Below are positions 49,492-57,789 of a stretch of 64,000 nt of DNA, piece by piece. The notes under the pieces were generated by a model, which searched no databases, had not been told where the DNA came from, and saw nothing but the letters and a program-made list of their open reading frames with translations. This stretch comes from an uncultured cyanobacterium (GTDB lineage: Bacteria; Cyanobacteriota; Cyanobacteriia; Thermostichales; Thermostichaceae), in contig CALFBB010000016.1 in assembly GCA_937944885.1 (NCBI GenBank), positions 124,001-188,000 of the forward strand, written 5' to 3'. Every line of letters begins with the position of its first letter. Within the stretch, counting starts at the first letter, position 1. A program made the position numbers and the translations under genes.

Positions 49492-49905
49492 TCACTGCAA
49501 AGGAGTTTTGCTGCCTCCCACCTCTTTTGGTAGACCTTGGCAGAGATGACAGAGGCCAAATAGCTGCAGCTCGTGGTAAAGAACCTGGAAGGGCTCAGGG
49601 AACTTAAGGGTCTTTTCCCACTCTTGCCATGGACAGGCCGGCAGGCGGATCATGCGCCGACACCGAATACAGGTCAAATAATGGTAGTGGTGCTCAGCCA
49701 GTGAATAGAGTATCTCACCCTCAGGTTGCCCATGGCAGCAGAGAAGCCCCTCTCGGCGAAGGTGACTGAGAATGCGGTAGACAGTTGCCAGACCAATTGT
49801 CTGCCCCTGCTGACGTAGCTGGGCAAACAGGGCTTGGGCGGAAATAGGTTGCTCCTGTTTCTGGAGAGTTTCCAGAATCAGGCGACGATGATCCGGACGT
49901 GCCAT
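49492..49905 (-). CDS. zur: Fur-family zinc regulator, probable Zur
   Basis: A 137-residue DNA-binding metalloregulator. The winged helix occupies about residues 1-70 (RRLILETLQKQEQPISAQALFAQL, TIGLATVYRILSHLRREGLL). The dimerisation part has a His-rich HHYHYLTCIRC segment, and the two Cys-x2-Cys pairs (79/82 and 119/122) form the usual structural zinc site. Sequence alone does not separate Fur from Zur. The neighbours do: a COG0523 GTPase, extra copies of zinc enzymes and znuABC lie on the other side, and a palindromic operator sits in the divergent promoter. Zur represses such genes when zinc is plentiful. The operator also lies close to its own start, so self-regulation is likely. Confidence 0.87.
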   Translation of the reverse strand: MARPDHRRLILETLQKQEQPISAQALFAQLRQQGQTIGLATVYRILSHLRREGLLCCHGQPEGEILYSLAEHHYHYLTCIRCRRMIRLPACPWQEWEKTLKFPEPFQVLYHELQLFGLCHLCQGLPKEVGGSKTPLQ

Positions 49906-49934
49906 CGAGCTACTGTTTGGGCAAATTGAGCGAG

Positions 49935-49947
49935 AACGATTATCATT
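49935..49947. promoter_or_regulatory. Probable Zur operator between zur and thrS
   Basis: AACGAT-T-ATCATT is a near-perfect inverted repeat (one mismatch) embedded in AT-rich DNA between the divergent zur (start 49905) and thrS (start 49982) genes. It has the form of the Zur/Fur operators described in other bacteria, and its twin lies at 54460-54472. It could control both directions. Confidence 0.75.
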
Positions 49948-49981
49948 ATCTTGTGTTTATCAACTTACCCCATTCAAGGAC

Positions 49982-51895
49982 GTGGTGGCTCAACCGTACG
50001 ATCTGGCTTCTCCTCCATTTGAAATGGATCCAGCTTTTGAGCAGCCTGCAGAGGAATCTCAAGTAGCCCAGAGTCAGCGGGACCGGCTGATTAGGATTCG
50101 TCACACCTGCGCTCATCTGCTGGCCATGGCAGTGCAGAGGTTGTATCCTGGTACCCGTGTTGCCACTGGGCCCTGGACAGAGACAGGCTTTTTTTATGAC
50201 TTTGAGGTGCCTATCCAGTTAACAGAATCTGATCTGCCCAAGATCGAGGCAGAAATGCGGCGGCTCATTCGGGCTAACCTGCCGATTATCCGAGAAGTGG
50301 TGGAGCGGCAAGAGATCCAAGCTGAGATTGAACGGCTACAGGAGCCCTACAAGCAGCAGATTTTGCAGCGCATCCCAGAAGGGGAGACCATCACCCGTTA
50401 CTTTATCGGTAACCCCGACAGTGGTCGTTGGCGCCAGCCGGGCAAGGCCCCTGAGGGATCCCTCTTCCAACCCTATGTATTGCCAAGCGAGGAAGTGTGG
50501 TGGGATCTCTGCGCCGGTCCCCACCTGAATTTCACGGGGGAAATTCACCCTGAGGCTTTTGCTTTAGAAAGTGTGGGTGGGGCCTATTGGCAAGGGGATG
50601 AAACCCAGCCGCAGCTGCAGCGGATCTACGGCACAGCTTGGGAAACCCCTGAAGAGTTACAAGCCTACCTGCGCCAGAAAGAGGAGGCAGCCAAGCGGGA
50701 CCACCGCAAGCTCGGCAAGGAGTTGGATCTGTTTAGTCTGCAGGAAGCTGCTGGAGGTGGCTTGGTCTTTTGGCACCCCAAGGGATCCCAGATGCGGCTG
50801 ATCATTGAGGACTACTGGAGAAAAGCTCACCTGCAGGCAGGATATGAGTTACTGTATACCCCCCACCTAGCCAACCTGGATCTGTGGAAAACCTCGGGTC
50901 ACTTTGAGTTTTACCGGGACAGCATGTTCGAGGCAATGCAGGTAGAACAGCAGCAGTATCAGCTCAAGCCGATGAACTGCCCGTTTCACGTTCTCACCTA
51001 CCAACGACATCTCCACTCTTACCGGGAGCTACCCATTCGCTATGCAGAGCTGGGAACTGTTTATCGCTACGAGCGCTCCGGTACCTTGCACGGCCTCATG
51101 CGCGTCAGAGGATTCACCCAGGATGATGCCCACATTTTTTGTCGCCCTGACCAGCTTCAGAATGAGATTTTGGGGGTTCTCAACTTAACCGAGCAGGTGC
51201 TGTCCGATTTTGGCTTTGCAGAGTACGAGATTCACCTCTCGACACGACCCTCCCCATCGGTGGGCTCTGATGAAGTTTGGCAACTGGCAACTGCAGCCCT
51301 TAAGGGATCCCTGGAAGCCAAGGGTTGGACCTATCAAATTGATGAAGGAGGAGGAGCATTCTATGGGCCGAAGATTGACTTAAAGATTAAAGATGCCATC
51401 GGTAGGCTTTGGCAATGTTCCACCATTCAAGTGGATTTTAATTTACCGGAAAGATTTGAGATCGGCTATGTGAATCAGGATGGATCCCGAAAAAGACCAA
51501 TTATGATTCACCGAGCTATTTTTGGGTCTTTAGAGCGATTTTTTGGCATCCTTATTGAAAACTATGCTGGTGACTTTCCGCTTTGGCTAGCTCCTGTCCA
51601 GATGCGGATTTGTCCTGTAACACAAGCCCAGCATGAGTATGCCCGGCAGCTTATGCAGCAGTTCCGCAGCTGGGGCTATCGGGTGGATGTGGATCAAAGC
51701 CAAGACCGTTTGGCAAAACAAATTCGCAATGCAGAACTGCAGCGGATCCCTATCATTGCCGTGGTTGGCAAACAGGAGGCTCAAAGCCAAACCCTCAGCG
51801 TTAGGACTCGCAAGCAAGGAGATTTAGGATCTCAAACCATAGAGCAAGTCATAGAAATGATGGCTAAGGCCGTTTCTAGCCACACCACGGTTTAG
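49982..51895 (+). CDS. thrS: Threonyl-tRNA synthetase, TGS-less form in the zinc island
   Basis: A class II synthetase of 637 residues. The N-terminal TGS domain is missing: the editing motif HTCAH (His41, His45), near residue 73 in full-length ThrRS, follows only 40 residues. The second editing motif DLCAGPH (Cys177, His181) is present. The catalytic domain has motif 2 RYERSGTLHGLMRVRGF, and all three zinc ligands are kept (Cys333 in MNCPFH, His384 in DDAH, His510 in MIHRA), so it still needs zinc. The C-terminal anticodon domain is intact. A GTG start at 49982 follows AAGGA. Zur-controlled second thrS copies are known in other cyanobacteria, and the operator upstream points to the same here. 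Confidence 0.92.
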   Translation: MVAQPYDLASPPFEMDPAFEQPAEESQVAQSQRDRLIRIRHTCAHLLAMAVQRLYPGTRVATGPWTETGFFYDFEVPIQLTESDLPKIEAEMRRLIRANLPIIREVVERQEIQAEIERLQEPYKQQILQRIPEGETITRYFIGNPDSGRWRQPGKAPEGSLFQPYVLPSEEVWWDLCAGPHLNFTGEIHPEAFALESVGGAYWQGDETQPQLQRIYGTAWETPEELQAYLRQKEEAAKRDHRKLGKELDLFSLQEAAGGGLVFWHPKGSQMRLIIEDYWRKAHLQAGYELLYTPHLANLDLWKTSGHFEFYRDSMFEAMQVEQQQYQLKPMNCPFHVLTYQRHLHSYRELPIRYAELGTVYRYERSGTLHGLMRVRGFTQDDAHIFCRPDQLQNEILGVLNLTEQVLSDFGFAEYEIHLSTRPSPSVGSDEVWQLATAALKGSLEAKGWTYQIDEGGGAFYGPKIDLKIKDAIGRLWQCSTIQVDFNLPERFEIGYVNQDGSRKRPIMIHRAIFGSLERFFGILIENYAGDFPLWLAPVQMRICPVTQAQHEYARQLMQQFRSWGYRVDVDQSQDRLAKQIRNAELQRIPIIAVVGKQEAQSQTLSVRTRKQGDLGSQTIEQVIEMMAKAVSSHTTV

Positions 51896-51950
51896 AAAGG
51901 TCTAGAAAGAATGATCAGATGAAGTTAGGTGCTGTTACCTAGAGATACGT

Positions 51951-53018
51951 ATGAGCTCGACCCTAGACATTCCCAATGTAGGATTGCCTGTCACCATCAT
52001 TACCGGCTTTTTAGGTAGTGGCAAGACAACGCTCTTAAACCATATTCTTGATAACCGCCAAGATCTGAAAGTAGCTGTATTGGTTAATGAGTTTGGAGAC
52101 ATTGACATAGATAGCCAGCTGTTGGTGTCCATTGACTCTGACATGGTGGAGCTGAGCAATGGCTGCATCTGTTGCACCATTAATGACGATCTGATAGAAG
52201 CTGTCTATCGGATCATGGAACGGGATCAAAAAGTTGATCATCTTATTATTGAAACCACAGGCGTTGCCGATCCACTACCTATTATTCTAACCTTCTTGGG
52301 TACCTCTCTCCGAGATTTGACACGTTTAGATTCTGTTATTACTCTCATTGACTCAGAAACCTTTACTCCTGAGCACTTTAATAGCCAAGCTGCCTACAGT
52401 CAAATTATCAATACAGATTTAATTTTACTCAATAAAATGGATCTTGTTAATTCAGAAAAACTAAATTCACTGGAAAAATATCTCTTTAGCGTTAATCCTG
52501 ATGCTCGTATACTTCGGTGTCAACAAAGTCGTGTTCCTCTGCCCCTATTATTTGATATTTCCCAAACACGTACCCAAGTTTACCTACAGAATCTAGATCC
52601 TGAAAATCCTGAAAAGCTTCATAGCTCCAACTCTGGTCCTCTTCACAGTCACAAGCACAATCACCACAATCACCATGAGCATCACGAGCATCATGAACAT
52701 CACAATCACAGTCATCACTCCCATCACCTAGAAAACGATGGCTTTGTTTCGGTAGGCTTCCAGTCTCGTTATCCCTTCTCTCTAGAAGCCTTCCAGGAGT
52801 TCCTCAACCAGCTTCCAAAAGAAGTATTCCGGGCCAAGGGTCTGCTTTGGTTCAGAGAAAGTGATCAAAGGTATATTTTTCAACTCTCCGGCAAACGATT
52901 TAATCTGGATCCTGACTTTAGACCCAGAGCTGTAGGTAATCAGTTGGTGTTAATCGGTAGAAATTTAGATTGTGAAGATTTAAAACAAAAACTGGAAAAT
53001 TGTGTTACACTAAGTTAA
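51951..53018 (+). CDS. COG0523 (CobW-like) metal-chaperone GTPase with His-rich loop
   Basis: A 355-residue G3E GTPase. Walker A is GFLGSGKTTLL (residues 19-29), the metal-binding CxCC is GCICCTI (Cys72, 74, 75), and the guanine-specificity motif is NKMD (161-164). Between the GTPase and the C-terminal CobW_C domain is a His-rich loop (about 232-259) with 18 His in 28 residues. This type, linked to Zur, is thought to deliver zinc to client enzymes in deficiency. The clients suggested by context are ThrS and FolE on either side. It begins 55 bp after thrS and ends 48 bp before folE, so they are one operon. The gene is visibly AT-richer than the window average. Confidence 0.93.
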   Translation: MSSTLDIPNVGLPVTIITGFLGSGKTTLLNHILDNRQDLKVAVLVNEFGDIDIDSQLLVSIDSDMVELSNGCICCTINDDLIEAVYRIMERDQKVDHLIIETTGVADPLPIILTFLGTSLRDLTRLDSVITLIDSETFTPEHFNSQAAYSQIINTDLILLNKMDLVNSEKLNSLEKYLFSVNPDARILRCQQSRVPLPLLFDISQTRTQVYLQNLDPENPEKLHSSNSGPLHSHKHNHHNHHEHHEHHEHHNHSHHSHHLENDGFVSVGFQSRYPFSLEAFQEFLNQLPKEVFRAKGLLWFRESDQRYIFQLSGKRFNLDPDFRPRAVGNQLVLIGRNLDCEDLKQKLENCVTLS

Positions 53019-53066
53019 GTGGCCTTAGATCTTGCCAGCTGTAGTTTTGATCCCTAGGAGTGGGCT

Positions 53067-53768
53067 ATGTCCTCTGAGGAGTACTCTTTGTCTGATGATC
53101 TCTTAAGCTCTGAAAGTGTTGTGGATTTTGAGGAACCCTCTGAAGTACTCCCTCGAATTTCTTCCCTTAATGTATTTACGGAACATGAACCTGTCGTTTC
53201 TGAGGAGCAGATGATCCAGGCAGTACGTACTCTACTGTTGGGGATCGGCGAGGATCCAGATCGGGAAGGCTTGAAAGATACCCCAAAGCGGGTTGTCAAG
53301 GCTCTTAAGTTTCTTACCCAGGGTTATCATCAATCGCTAGATGATCTCTTAAACAATGCTATCTTTCATGAAGACACTGATGAGATGGTTTTGGTGAGAG
53401 ATATCGATATTTTTAGCTCTTGTGAGCATCATATTCTACCGATCATCGGTCGTGCTCATGTTGCTTATATTCCTGATGGTCGTGTTATTGGTTTATCTAA
53501 GTTGGCTCGCATTTGTGAGATGTATGCCCGTCGTCTGCAAGTTCAAGAGCGGCTAACTGCACAGATTGCCGACGCCATTCAAGGATTGCTTAAGCCTCGT
53601 GGGGTTGCTGTTGTGGTGGAGGCAACTCACATGTGTATGGTGATGCGGGGGGTACAAAAAACAGGATCCTGGACGGCTACCAGTGCTATGCGCGGAGTTT
53701 TTGCTGAGGATGCTCGTACACGTCAAGAGTTTATGAGCTTGATTTGTCATAACTTTAACAATCGCTAG
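53067..53768 (+). CDS. folE: GTP cyclohydrolase I (type IA)
   Basis: This enzyme opens the GTP ring to make 7,8-dihydroneopterin triphosphate, the entry to folate (and pterin) synthesis. The protein has 233 residues: an acidic, Ser-rich extension of about 45 residues, then the catalytic domain. The three zinc ligands of the IA type are present (Cys119 and His122 in SSCEHH, Cys190 in THMCM), as are [10 protein letters not shown] and the C-terminal [13 protein letters not shown]. Because it is itself a zinc enzyme, a copy under Zur control next to a metal chaperone is plausible as a reserve. Whether another folE exists in the genome cannot be seen here. Confidence 0.93.
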
Positions 53769-54007
53769 GGCTTACTGTTGTCTCTTTTAGAGGAATCTTT
53801 TTGTGGATGTATCTAGATGCAAAAAGGTTCTCTTGATTGCAGTTACTTTCTCCTGATCTGGATCCCATGTAATCTTGCTGGATTGACCAGTTCAAGTTCA
53901 ACAGTGATGGCCTTATTCCTGCCATTGTTCAAGATGTACAAAATGGCACTGTCCTGATGATGGCTTGGATGAACCGAGCGTCCATTCAAGCAATCCTTGA
54001 GACGGAG

Positions 54008-54029
54008 GAAGCCCACTAGAAGCCCACTA
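54008..54029. repeat. 11-bp tandem duplication disrupting hisI
   Basis: GAAGCCCACTA occurs twice head to tail. Removing one copy restores the reading from EEAH to YWSRSRQ. Confidence 0.95.
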
Positions 54030-54116
54030 TTGGAGTCGTTCTCGGCAGGAGTTATTGTACAAGGGATCCACCTCAAGCCACATCCAGAAGGTCAAAGTCT
54101 TTCTCTAGGACTCTGA

Positions 54117-54144
54117 TGCAGATACTCTGCTGCAGATACTCTGC
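54117..54144. repeat. 14-bp tandem duplication disrupting hisI
   Basis: TGCAGATACTCTGC occurs twice head to tail. Removing one copy restores [16 protein letters not shown]. Confidence 0.95.
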
Positions 54145-54203
54145 TTCTTAAGGTGGAGCAAGTGGGTGATGTTGCCTGTCATACGGGTGTGAGGAGCTGC
54201 TTT

Positions 54204-54225
54204 TTTTAATACCGTTTTAATACCG
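54204..54225. repeat. 11-bp tandem duplication at the hisI 3' end
   Basis: TTTTAATACCG occurs twice head to tail, just after the RSCF-coding end of the decayed hisI. Confidence 0.93.
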
Positions 54226-54245
54226 TGGATTTGCTGGAGGTTTGA

Positions 54246-54440
54246 TTTTTCATTCATGGCACTCCGGAAAATCAGCTGTTGAACATTCAAAACCTAGTGG
54301 AACAGCGGCAGAAGGCCCGGCAAACCCGCAACTTTGCCGAAGCTGACCGCATCCGGCAACTTTTGCAGGAACAAGGGATTCCTCTGGTGGATGCTCCCAA
54401 TGGAGAAACCTACTGGTACTCCACTGTTGAGCTGGACTAG
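54246..54440 (+). pseudogene. cysS: 3' fragment of cysS (cysteinyl-tRNA synthetase)
   Basis: A 64-codon open frame without its own start encodes a recognisable CysRS C-terminus: LLNIQNLVEQRQKARQTRNF, then AEADRIRQLLQEQGIPLVDA, ending PNGETYWYSTVELD. This is the usual tail with its R-Q-x-A-R and A-D-x-I-R signatures and the GI-x-L-x-D strand. The catalytic HIGH/KMSKS domains, which should lie about 1.2 kb upstream, are absent; decayed hisI occupies that place. It is therefore a remnant, probably left by a deletion. CysRS is a zinc enzyme and occurs as an extra copy in some COG0523/Zur neighbourhoods. Confidence 0.85.
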
Positions 54441-54459
54441 GGAAGATGATACTCTAGAG

Positions 54460-54472
54460 AATGATTATCATT
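54460..54472. promoter_or_regulatory. Probable Zur operator upstream of sufE-znuABC
   Basis: AATGAT-T-ATCATT is a perfect 13-bp inverted repeat about 20 bases before the sufE start. It is nearly identical to the site between zur and thrS, which supports one regulator for both operons. Confidence 0.82.
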
Positions 54473-54491
54473 ATTTGTCTAAGTGTACTGG

Positions 54492-54941
54492 ATGAGCTCG
54501 TTGATCCCTGAGGCTCTGCAGTCAATTGTCAGCAGCTTCCAGAAGGCGGAAACTTCCAAGCGTAAGTACGAGCTGTTGTTGGCTTACGCCAAGCGCCTTC
54601 CTCCACTGCCGGAAGAAGAGCGGACGGAGGCAAACCTGGTTAGGGGTTGTGCATCCCGGGTTTGGCTGGCTACCTCTTTTCAGGATGGCAAGCTCGCCAT
54701 TCGGGGAGATGCTGATGCTCAGCTGGTGAAAGGCTTGGTGGCGGTTTTGGTAGAGGGCCTAAGCGGCCTTTCCCCTAAGGAGGTTCTTCAGGTTTCACCA
54801 AGCTTTGTGGAAGATATGGGGCTGAACTTTAGCCTTAGCCCTTCGAGAACCAATGGTTTTCTCAATATGTTTTCTCTGCTCCGCCAGAGAGCTTTGGCTG
54901 CGCAGCTGATGGGGTCTAAGACTTGTGCTGTTTTTTCGTGA
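54492..54941 (+). CDS. sufE: SufE-family cysteine desulfurase activator
   Basis: A 149-residue protein that accepts persulfide sulfur from SufS and stimulates it for Fe-S cluster assembly. The acceptor Cys is at about residue 53 in LVRGCASRVWLA; other matches are KYELLLAYAKRLPPLPEEERTE and the C-terminal GLSPKEVLQVSPSFVEDMGL helix. The ATG at 54492 is preferred to a GTG nine bases earlier. It is the first gene after the second Zur operator and ends 9 bp before znuA, so it is most likely co-regulated with zinc uptake. That pairing is unusual: no other suf gene is nearby. The last 25 residues extend beyond the typical domain. Confidence 0.9.
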   Translation: MSSLIPEALQSIVSSFQKAETSKRKYELLLAYAKRLPPLPEEERTEANLVRGCASRVWLATSFQDGKLAIRGDADAQLVKGLVAVLVEGLSGLSPKEVLQVSPSFVEDMGLNFSLSPSRTNGFLNMFSLLRQRALAAQLMGSKTCAVFS

Positions 54942-54950
54942 GGGATTCTG

Positions 54951-56138
54951 ATGAACTTTAAGCCTAAGACTAGCTCGGTGCAAGCTGTGGTTTCTTTGAT
55001 GGCTGCTTGTTCGCTGGGGGTGATGGGCAGTTTGCCCATTCGCCAGCAAGCCTCTCAAGCCCAGTCGGCAGCTCCTCCCCAAGTGGTGACAACCATTTTG
55101 CCGATGACCCAGTTCACCCGTGCTGTAGCCGGAGAGCGAGCGGAGGTAACGCCTCTGATTCCTCCTCACCTAGGTCCTCATGATTATCAGGCTCGCCCGG
55201 AAGATGGGCGTTTGCTTGCTCAGGCGGATGTACTGGTGATCAACGGTTTGGGGATGGAAACTTTTCTGGATGGGTTGATGGCCAGTGCCGGAAATCCTAA
55301 CTTGACGGTAATCGACACCAGCGAGGGTATCCCCACCCTGCGTACCCAAGAGCCAGAACATGGGCATGGAGACGGTCATGGCCACTCTCATGGACATTCT
55401 CACTCCCATGGGCATTCTCATGGACACAGTCATGGACACTCCCATGACCATGGGCATAGCCATGGTGAGTTTAACCCGCATATTTGGTTGGATCCCAGAC
55501 GGGCTATTCAGCAGGTGGAAAATATCCGCGATGGCCTGATTTCTGTGGATCCGGAGGGGGCAGATATTTACCGAGCGAATGCTGCTGCTTTTATTGAGGA
55601 GCTAACGGCTCTGGATCTGGAAATTGCCCAGCAACTGGCGCCATTTGAGGGGAGGAGTTTTGTGGTTTTCCACGATATTGCCCCTTACTTTGCCGAGCGC
55701 TACAACCTCAAGTCGGAGTTTCTGGTGGAGATCCCGGAGGCCAGTCCTTCACCGGAGGATGTCAGGCGGGTGATGGATACGGTGCGGGAATCGGGTTTAA
55801 AAACCATTCTTGTGGAACCACAAGTGGGGGACAACAATCCCTTTGAGGTTTTGGCTCAAGATTTGGGGGTACAAGTGCGGGTTTTTGACCCCATTGAAAC
55901 CGCTGGCCCGGAGGGAATCGAGCCGGAGTATTACCTCACTATCATGCGGCAAAACGTGGAGAATCTGGTGTCGTCTTTTGAAGCGGAAACGGCTTTTCTA
56001 CCTGAGGACTTTGTTCCGCTGTTGCCTTCGCTGAGTGGTCCTGTGGCGTTTGCGTTAGGAGGACGGGGTGCTTTGCCCAGCATGAGCGGTGTTGGAGCTG
56101 TTGAAGAACTGGAAGAACTGCTAGTCACCGCTCGATGA
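54951..56138 (+). CDS. znuA: Zinc ABC transporter solute-binding protein ZnuA
   Basis: The periplasmic zinc-capture protein, 395 residues. An N-terminal hydrophobic segment with an Ala/Gln-rich cleavage region (about 10-40) is a signal peptide. Likely zinc ligands are the His near residue 77 (LGPHDYQ), the His after the loop (NPHIWLDP) and the His in VVFHDIAPYF. A Gly/His/Ser loop at about 137-171 has 17 His residues, longer than in many ZnuA proteins, and may collect or buffer zinc. GAGGG lies before the ATG. The stop overlaps the znuC start by four bases (ATGA). Confidence 0.96.
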   Translation: MNFKPKTSSVQAVVSLMAACSLGVMGSLPIRQQASQAQSAAPPQVVTTILPMTQFTRAVAGERAEVTPLIPPHLGPHDYQARPEDGRLLAQADVLVINGLGMETFLDGLMASAGNPNLTVIDTSEGIPTLRTQEPEHGHGDGHGHSHGHSHSHGHSHGHSHGHSHDHGHSHGEFNPHIWLDPRRAIQQVENIRDGLISVDPEGADIYRANAAAFIEELTALDLEIAQQLAPFEGRSFVVFHDIAPYFAERYNLKSEFLVEIPEASPSPEDVRRVMDTVRESGLKTILVEPQVGDNNPFEVLAQDLGVQVRVFDPIETAGPEGIEPEYYLTIMRQNVENLVSSFEAETAFLPEDFVPLLPSLSGPVAFALGGRGALPSMSGVGAVEELEELLVTAR

Positions 56139-56932
56139 GCCTTCCTTCTTGTTCATCTTACTCTCCTCCAGAGGATGCCGTTCTTGTGGTGGAGGGGTTG
56201 ACGGTCTACCGCGGTTCCCGTCTGGCGGTGCAGAATGTCTCTTTTGTGCTAAGGGCGGGATCCAATATGGCCATTATTGGCCCCAATGGAGCGGGGAAGA
56301 GCACCCTGATCCAAGCCATTTTGGGGATCCTTCCCCGCCAGTGTGGGCAGGTCTGGATTTTGGGGGAGCCGCTGCGCCTATCGGGTTATTTACCAGAGCA
56401 GGTGCGGCAGCAGGTTGCCTACATCCCCCAAAGTTTTCAGTTCAGCGGCAGCATGCCGATGACGGTGGCGGAGTTTGTTGCCCTGGGCTGGGGGATGCTG
56501 CGGCCTCGTTTGCCTTGGGTGGGTAGGGTGGCACGTCGCCAAGCGGTCAAAGAGGCGCTGGAGCGGGTGGGAGCGCTGCATTTGTTGGCGCAGCCTCTGG
56601 GTCAACTCAGTGGGGGGGAAACCAAGCGGGTGCTACTGGCTCATTGTCTGGTTTGGCCGCGGCGGTTGTTGATTTTGGATGAGGCACCAGCAGGGTTGGA
56701 TGCCCGCAGTGAAGGGGATTTCTACCAACTGCTAGAGGAGGTGCGGCAAACTTTGGGTTGGTCGATTTTGCAGATTTCCCATGATTTGGATATGGTGTCC
56801 CGCCATTGTGACCAGGTGATCTGCTTGAATCGTTCTCTAATTCATCAGGGATCCCCGCAAACAACTTTGGCCCCGGAGGTGCTGGTCAATGCCTATGGAG
56901 CTGAGTTTATCCGTTATTTGCATCACCACTAA
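56135..56932 (+). CDS. znuC: Zinc ABC transporter ATPase ZnuC
   Basis: The ATP-hydrolysing subunit, 265 residues. It has Walker A GPNGAGKSTLIQAILG, signature LSGGETKRVLLAHCL, Walker B LLILDEAPAGLDARS and the switch His in ISHDLDMVSRHCD. The LDEAPAGLD variant (Ala for the common Pro) leaves the catalytic Glu in place. It is translationally coupled to znuA through the ATGA overlap and followed by znuB after 11 bp. The next GGGATCCC after the palindrome-free stretch of the island lies near its 3' end. Confidence 0.95.
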   Translation: MSLPSCSSYSPPEDAVLVVEGLTVYRGSRLAVQNVSFVLRAGSNMAIIGPNGAGKSTLIQAILGILPRQCGQVWILGEPLRLSGYLPEQVRQQVAYIPQSFQFSGSMPMTVAEFVALGWGMLRPRLPWVGRVARRQAVKEALERVGALHLLAQPLGQLSGGETKRVLLAHCLVWPRRLLILDEAPAGLDARSEGDFYQLLEEVRQTLGWSILQISHDLDMVSRHCDQVICLNRSLIHQGSPQTTLAPEVLVNAYGAEFIRYLHHH

Positions 56933-56943
56933 GGGAGGCTGGG

Positions 56944-57789
56944 ATGCCAGAAGCATGGCTACGGGTGTGGGAACTGTTGCAGTTGCCATTTATGCAACGG
57001 GCTATGGTGAGCGGGATCCTCACCGGTGTAACGGGTGGGCTGCTGGGTAGCTTTGCCATTTTTCGGCAGTTGTCTTTTTTTAGTGATGCCTTGGGACACT
57101 CGGCGCTACTGGGAATTGTGCTGGGGGTGCTGCTGGGGGTGGATCCGACTTGGGTGCTGCTGCCCTTTGGGGTAGTGTTTGCTCTGGGGGTCACCTTGAT
57201 ATTGGAGCACACCCAGTTGTCAGTGGATGCAGTGCTCAACATTATCTACTCTTCGTCCCTGGCGCTGGCGGTGATTGCTCTCAGTTTGATTCAAGGCTAT
57301 CGGGGCAACCTCAATCAGCTGTTGTTTGGGGATATTTTGGGGGTTAGCCCAACGGCCCTGTGGCTGAGTGGTATCCTTCTGCTGGTGAGCTTGCTGTACA
57401 TTGGGTTAACTTTACCCTCCCAAATGTTATTAACTTTACATAAACCTCTGGCCCAGGCGCGGGGGGTGCGGGTGAACTGGCAGCGGACAATGTTTGTGGT
57501 GCTCCTGGCTTTGGTGGTGGCTTTGTCCATCCGCGCGATAGGGGTGCTGTTGGTGAGTGCTTTTGTGGTGATCCCGGCTGCAACGGCGCGGGTATGGGCT
57601 TCTAGTTTCAGTGCCTATGTGCTCTTGGCCATGCTCCTGGGGGCCCTGAGTGCTGTGCTGGGCATGTTGGGATCAGCTGTTTTCAATCTGCCCTCTGGGC
57701 CCAGTATCGTGACAACACAGCTGCTGCTGTTTGTGTTGAGTCTGGGGGTAAAAGGGGCAAGACAAACTGTAACTTTTTCTCAGGGCTAA
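56944..57789 (+). CDS. znuB: Zinc ABC transporter permease ZnuB
   Basis: The membrane channel subunit, 281 residues with about eight hydrophobic segments. Family motifs are MQRAMVSGILTGVTGGLLGSF, ALGHSALLGIVLGVLLGV, the conserved VDAVLNIIYSSSLALAVIAL region and IRAIGVLLVSAFVVIPAATARVWA near the C-terminal third. GGGAGG lies six bases before the ATG. It completes a full sufE-znuABC operon, the only complete ABC importer in the window. Its stop lies about 180 bp from the convergent crtH stop. Confidence 0.95.
   Translation: MPEAWLRVWELLQLPFMQRAMVSGILTGVTGGLLGSFAIFRQLSFFSDALGHSALLGIVLGVLLGVDPTWVLLPFGVVFALGVTLILEHTQLSVDAVLNIIYSSSLALAVIALSLIQGYRGNLNQLLFGDILGVSPTALWLSGILLLVSLLYIGLTLPSQMLLTLHKPLAQARGVRVNWQRTMFVVLLALVVALSIRAIGVLLVSAFVVIPAATARVWASSFSAYVLLAMLLGALSAVLGMLGSAVFNLPSGPSIVTTQLLLFVLSLGVKGARQTVTFSQG

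Follow-up and report, generated by a model that had tools for sequence, protein, structure and literature searches.

A sufE gene behind a Zur-type operator and ahead of znuABC: a probable zinc-free stand-in for SufU in an uncultured cyanobacterium of the Thermostichaceae

Zinc-sparing substitutions are known for folE, hemB and thrS. In the accessible portions of the respective papers, hemB2, thrS2 and folE2 are given as Zur targets of Anabaena (PMC6103462), Zur control is predicted for queD2 (PMC9508795), and a zinc response is described in Synechococcus 7002 for a hemB-II/folE-II cluster that includes a FAD-dependent oxidoreductase (PMC4628125). The two sulfur-transfer partners of SufS differ in their metal requirement, SufU being described as zinc-dependent and SufE as not a metalloprotein (PMC8593673, PMC10216065; both accessible in part). 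According to the available part of a further source, SufU is related to IscU, and the third position of the HXXD motif of SufS is occupied in B. subtilis by a histidine that exchanges into the zinc site of SufU, and in E. coli by a tyrosine (PMC11408855). The rare co-occurrence of SufU and SufE is already known; no description of sufE under Zur was found in the open-licence literature, as far as its accessible text extends.

The window analyzed here (the whole stretch of 64,000 nucleotides) contains sufE at 54492-54941 on the + strand (Pfam PF02657, SufE, 139.2 bits vs. a cut-off of 27), with an ATG start at 54492 and an alternative GTG at 54483. It is followed on the same strand by znuA, encoding a substrate-binding protein with a His-rich loop (54951-56138; PF01297, 265 bits), the ATPase gene znuC (56135-56932; PF00005, ABC_tran, 101 bits, over cut-off) and the permease gene znuB (56944-57789; PF00950, ABC-3, 208 bits). 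As the sequence-only reading had stated, sufE ends 9 bp before znuA (stop to ATG, 54942-54950); znuA and znuC overlap by 4 bp, and 11 bp lie between znuC and znuB. The ZnuABC-type importer is complete, since the ZnuA, ABC_tran and ABC-3 Pfam domains occur together and all over cut-off; ZnuA falls below its curated NCBIfam cut-off (140.9 vs. 268), and the His-rich loop and the operator are the grounds for inferring that the importer is zinc-specific. A simple scan of 53700-57200 found no sigma-70-like promoter on either strand, hence none between sufE and znuA; this is weak evidence, since no promoter-like site showed at the sufE promoter either, and the promoter and terminator scan of the locus was uninformative. 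The Rfam search of the window gave no match at the gathering threshold, so no described riboswitch is involved.

The encoded protein has the cysteine that accepts the persulfide and, in the R119 loop, the functional arginine, also when aligned with E. coli SufE, and C53 and R119 are invariant in 12 aligned sequences (alignment A1). It stays below both NCBIfam equivalog cut-offs (CsdE, 82.0 vs. 136.4; SufE, 80.7 vs. 160); by its sequence, it belongs to the SufE/CsdE family broadly taken, and the two subfamily models do not decide between them. The earlier claim that no other suf gene lies around it holds for those searched, as sufS and sufU are located on contigs C3 and C6, respectively (sufBCD was outside the search).

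The perfect operator-like palindrome reported before sufE is also there: AATGAT-T-ATCATT (AATGATTATCATT), at 54460-54472, ends 19 bp before the ATG and is unique within the window. In the 7-1-7 reading, the Zur-type operator is AGAGAATGATTATCA (54456-54470, + strand), which overlaps this 6-1-6 core and agrees at 12/14 positions with TGATAATNATTATCA, a consensus that we take to be the Zur motif of the Anabaena literature. The exact AATGATNATCATT has one site in the window vs. 0.01 expected from shuffles, and the longer shared motif GANAAYGATTATCATTAT occurs without mismatches at two places (49932 and 54457) vs. 0.01 expected. The RegPrecise cyanobacterial Zur box, quoted for marine Synechococcus as NTNANAATGATNATCATTNTNAN in the accessible part of its source (PMC9337993), has a core identical to that of the sufE operator.

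In the whole 2.82-Mb assembly, the relaxed core AAYGATNATCRTT has only three sites (the reversed control pattern, 0), and all three adjoin zinc-type genes. Besides the one upstream of sufE-znuABC, a second site (49931-49949, + strand; core AACGATTATCATT at 49935-49947) lies between a Fur-family regulator gene (49492-49905, - strand; Pfam FUR, 62.8 bits), which is probably Zur, and the divergent thrS-COG0523-folE island (49982-53768). The latter consists, on the + strand, of thrS (threonyl-tRNA ligase, 49982-51895; TIGR00418, 706.9 bits) as the first gene behind the site, a COG0523/CobW-type GTPase gene with a His-rich stretch (51951-53018; Pfam PF02492 and PF07683) and folE (GTP cyclohydrolase I, 53067-53768; TIGR00063, 270.5 bits). 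The third site is found 26 bp before an FAD-type oxidoreductase gene of contig C30 (L306:216-1513; G000:C30:46773), named from its sequence without a family search, which is probably a further member of the Zur regulon of this genome. By its promoter box, sufE would itself be a member of this regulon, Zur binding and induction in zinc shortage being inferred. Between folE and sufE (53860-54440), the translations show, by eye, decayed pieces resembling hisI (phosphoribosyl-AMP cyclohydrolase) and the cysS C-terminus; we assume the products of both genes to be zinc enzymes, and the pieces are possibly remains of further zinc-related paralogues.

The sequence-only reading had asked whether the genome holds sufU or a second sufE, and where sufS lies. 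A sufU gene is present: the one NifU_N match in the genome is a stand-alone 164-aa protein on contig C6, which passes the SufU model TIGR01994 (166.8 bits vs. a cut-off of 92.5) and aligns three cysteines and an aspartate with the four positions at which B. subtilis SufU binds zinc. None of the three relaxed-core sites is at this gene, which is thus without a Zur-type box by that search. The genome-wide search for SufE returned one match, that of the window, the sole SufE found; a second one may have been missed because the assembly is 95% complete. Five aminotransferase-V genes occur, and the C3 copy passes the sufS model (the other four were outside that scan) and is the only gene matching the genome's own SufS at 1e-100; its motif is HPHD, i.e., with the SufU-type histidine.

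Across 291 evenly drawn genomes of the class, with SufU called at 100 bits or more (matches taken for NifU score about 50 or less), SufE was found in 211 and SufU in 107, both proteins in 36, SufE only in 175, SufU only in 71 and neither in 9. Thus, the two largely exclude each other (Fisher p 2e-30), with the caveat that Fisher values overstate independence, the genomes being related and some of them draft MAGs. The SufU-like protein of one genome counted with both (G222) is only 39% identical and may not be SufU.

The surroundings of sufE were read in 36 genomes with both proteins, i.e., 35 of the 36 of the survey (G126, with sufE in fragments, was left out of the box counts) together with G187, which has only a SufU fragment and was counted as both. 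As controls, 54 of the 175 SufE-only genomes were hand-picked for family spread; G170, G097, G022, G211 and G115 were kept among them though COG0523 or folE was already known nearby. A box was defined as at least 12/14 agreement with TGATAATNATTATCA from -150 to +100 of the longest sufE frame, a threshold fixed after a first look at the data. On these terms, sufE is boxed in 22/36 genomes with SufU (8 families) vs. 2/54 without it (p 1.3e-9), and 17 added SufE-only genomes yielded no box, bringing that figure to 2/71; a box or COG0523, folE or znuA within 500 bp downstream occurs in 28/36 vs. 8/54. For comparison, the box threshold is also passed by 12 of 157 further open frames of these loci (frames unfiltered for sharing the same site). 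The commonest sufE box is TGAGAATGATTATCA, at about -45. Among the 80 loci kept from a contig scan, all with cyanobacterial names (other phyla were outside the survey), seven of these best 80 matches have a boxed sufE (L224, L251, L257, L264, L269, L277, L278), including Chamaesiphon polymorphus CCALA 037 and Leptolyngbyaceae CSU_1_3; SufU status was not part of this reading, and some of these named records coincide with survey genomes.

The genes behind boxed sufE vary, from znuABC in the window's own genus to COG0523-folE in several families or folE alone (G027), and no zinc gene lies within 500 bp in G030, G044, G153 and G262; the box, not the downstream genes, is the common element at sufE. 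The order sufE-znuABC, the conservation of which in relatives had been left to verify, is kept with its box in three further species of this genus (G004, G029, G079), where the gene upstream is not the thrS-COG0523-folE island; the unit therefore holds together as sufE-znuABC. Two species of the genus without SufE (G043 and G068; loci L139 and L141) carry 13/14 Zur boxes at a znuA gene, located directly before znuA in G043, a sister with SufU only; G068 gave no SufS match at 1e-100. On the other hand, 8/36 genomes with both proteins have neither box nor zinc gene behind sufE (G091, G037, G058, G158, G165, G174, G213, G222); sufE follows a frame resembling homoserine dehydrogenase in G158, and the locus reading recognized no zinc genes near it in G165, G174, G213 and G222. 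These cases could be due to draft contigs or to later acquisition, neither of them shown.

Several loci deserve separate mention. G160 (L138) has a 14/14 Zur box and COG0523-folE around a broken sufE, matched over only 33 residues, and its genome lacks SufU at the 100-bit threshold. A gene resembling metE by eye, whose product is presumably a zinc enzyme, is divergent from sufE in G030 and G058 (L047 and L052), and the sufE promoter beside it has the palindrome TGAAAATCATTTTCA in the former and a weak site in the latter. A weaker recurring site, TGATAGTGATTATTT (up to 11/14), is located at -27 of sufE in L128, L274, L301 and similar loci; its carriers are the SufE-only G115 and named Nostocaceae-type records, and a COG0523 gene follows downstream at a distance of about 1 kb.

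The SufS motif was sought in 70 genomes (18 with both proteins, 21 SufU only, 31 SufE only) and was readable in 18, 19 and 29 of them, respectively. The histidine is present in 18/18, 19/19 and 4/29, so it is kept in all 37 SufU-bearing genomes read; the remaining SufE-only enzymes have N (16), Q (5) or S (4) at this position. As the histidine is found in every SufU-bearing genome read, SufU is probably the working partner and boxed SufE an auxiliary one where both are present. The four SufE-only genomes with the histidine suggest that SufE may be able to work with a SufS of this type. Before the active cysteine of SufS (L154-L220), SufU-bearing genomes have RAGHHC and SufE-only genomes mostly R(S/T)GHHC, a second SufS position tracking the partner. 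In G011, which has SufU and a very diverged boxed SufE, a second SufS-like gene (L221; G011:C1:499402-500571) lies within an open frame of 673 aa; it is 53% identical to the SufS of the window's genome.

Gene order, operator sequence, the joint presence of SufU, SufE and a SufU-type SufS, and the comparative association are directly observed, and we consider it probable that sufE heads an operon, sufE-znuABC, under repression by Zur, and that its product stands in for SufU without needing zinc. With ample zinc, Zn-Zur on 54456-54472 would keep sufE-znuABC off, and SufS would pass its persulfide to zinc-loaded SufU. When zinc is low, Zur would leave the operator, ZnuABC would be made and import zinc, and SufE, made alongside, would take sulfur from SufS for SufBCD; in this proposal, Fe-S assembly would not stop. 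In the absence of transcript, binding or zinc data, the binding of Zur, induction by zinc shortage, the work of SufE with its own SufS and the benefit for the cell are inferred. The arrangement appears to be in use in many related cyanobacteria as well. The suggestion of the sequence-only reading that a zinc-responsive SufE secures Fe-S assembly thus gains support from the presence of SufU, the single sufE, the SufU-type SufS, and sufE boxes that are common with SufU and rare without it, the zinc response itself remaining an inference.

The same reading had left room for sufE merely sharing the znuABC promoter, zinc control being incidental and without function in zinc shortage. Nothing separates the two genes beyond the 9 bp, and there are no expression data to rule it out, but this agrees poorly with a box that stays while the genes following sufE differ, or are not zinc genes at all, and that is rare where SufU is missing (2/71); we regard it as unlikely. 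A Zur-controlled SufE could also serve another sulfur-transfer job in zinc shortage (CsdE-like, in tRNA modification or for COG0523 GTPases) instead of replacing SufU, given that the CsdE and SufE models fit about equally with neither cut-off reached, and that COG0523 is the commonest neighbor of sufE in the locus reading. Against it, the window's own genus has znuABC, not COG0523, behind sufE; moreover, SufE occurs without detected SufU in 175/291 genomes and its knock-out is reported as lethal in cyanobacteria (PMC7058544, accessible in part), so that in cyanobacteria SufE is able to support Fe-S assembly by itself, and we find such a separate role quite improbable.

The operator might instead belong to the iron regulator FurA, with sufE answering to iron and not to zinc. 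The site also resembles a classical Fur box. Anabaena sufE (alr3513) is listed as a FurA target in the available part of PMC4788461. Nevertheless, all three genome-wide sites are at zinc-type genes, one of them beside a separate Fur-family gene, the core is that of the published cyanobacterial Zur box (PMC9337993, in its accessible part), and in the SufE-less sister G043 the 13/14 box precedes znuA; control by FurA is accordingly given very little credence. The strongest contrary facts to the zinc-free stand-in are of another kind, namely the eight genomes with SufU and SufE but no box or zinc gene, and reports of non-substitution across systems: in the accessible text, SufE is not interchangeable with SufU (PMC11408855) and E. 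coli SufE failed to activate the SufS of M. tuberculosis (PMC10216065). That the window SufE docks to a SufU-type SufS hence has to be assumed, and only the four SufE-only genomes with the histidine make this easier to accept; many cyanobacteria have SufE and no detected SufU (175/291), and replacement within one cell is inferred.

In the SufE tree, the clade of the window's genus stands apart from a large COG0523-linked group. A first tree, labeled by box or zinc neighbor vs. the eight genomes without either sign, showed no clustering beyond chance (213/500 shuffles as low); on a second, without G011 and G020 (long branches) and G126 and G160 (broken sufE), the box alone was clustered (0/500 shuffles as low) and needs about nine changes, at least six of them forced by well-supported branches, which may be gains or losses. 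Near-identical boxed SufE in different families (e.g., G006, G253, G121 and G148) suggests, from protein similarity, transfer between families. A speculative extension, which we hold possible and on balance rather doubtful, is that Zur-controlled SufE was the stepping stone by which cyanobacteria swapped essential Fe-S sulfur carriers: SufE entered several times as a zinc-starvation backup beside SufU; under lasting zinc shortage SufU disappeared, SufE escaped Zur control and the SufS histidine was dropped, so that having SufE alone, as most cyanobacteria and perhaps plastids do, would be a relic of zinc-poor waters. Fitting this are the SufE-only genomes G132 (box, COG0523 behind sufE, SufS histidine), G229 (box) and G019, G064 and G196 (SufS histidine).

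If true, the zinc-free stand-in would account for those cyanobacteria that retain SufU as well as SufE despite the usual exclusion, link zinc supply to iron-sulfur metabolism, and show a concrete way in which SufE could have replaced SufU during evolution. Compared with the SufS-SufE systems of E. coli, plants and many cyanobacteria, the window protein belongs to the same SufE family and has the same active-site cysteine, but it is probably not the housekeeping partner, SufU being present and SufS having the SufU-type histidine. The SufS-SufU systems of B. subtilis and M. tuberculosis likewise combine a zinc-type SufU with an HPHD SufS as this genome does; they are described with SufU alone, whereas here a zinc-free acceptor is added under a zinc operator. 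The Anabaena Zur regulon with zepA (PMC10957091) is similar in placing znuABC, chaperones of the COG0523 type and zinc-protein paralogues behind a Zur motif of 15 bp, and the accessible part of that source names no sufE as a Zur target. A published remark on ancient oceans shares the idea of SufE relieving the zinc need of SufU; in its available text it is evolutionary, without Zur control, a co-occurring SufU in living cells or the gene order. A further likeness is to the Zur-controlled zinc-sparing paralogues hemB2, thrS2, folE2 and queD2, in which a substitute is under Zur and the zinc-requiring counterpart lies elsewhere; here too the counterpart, SufU, is in the same genome and without a box of this pattern, and the role of SufE as its substitute is inferred. 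Those are, however, paralogues of the proteins they relieve, whereas SufE and SufU differ in sequence and the process protected is Fe-S assembly; the zinc-sparing principle would thereby be extended, via a protein of a different family, to a process essential for photosynthesis.
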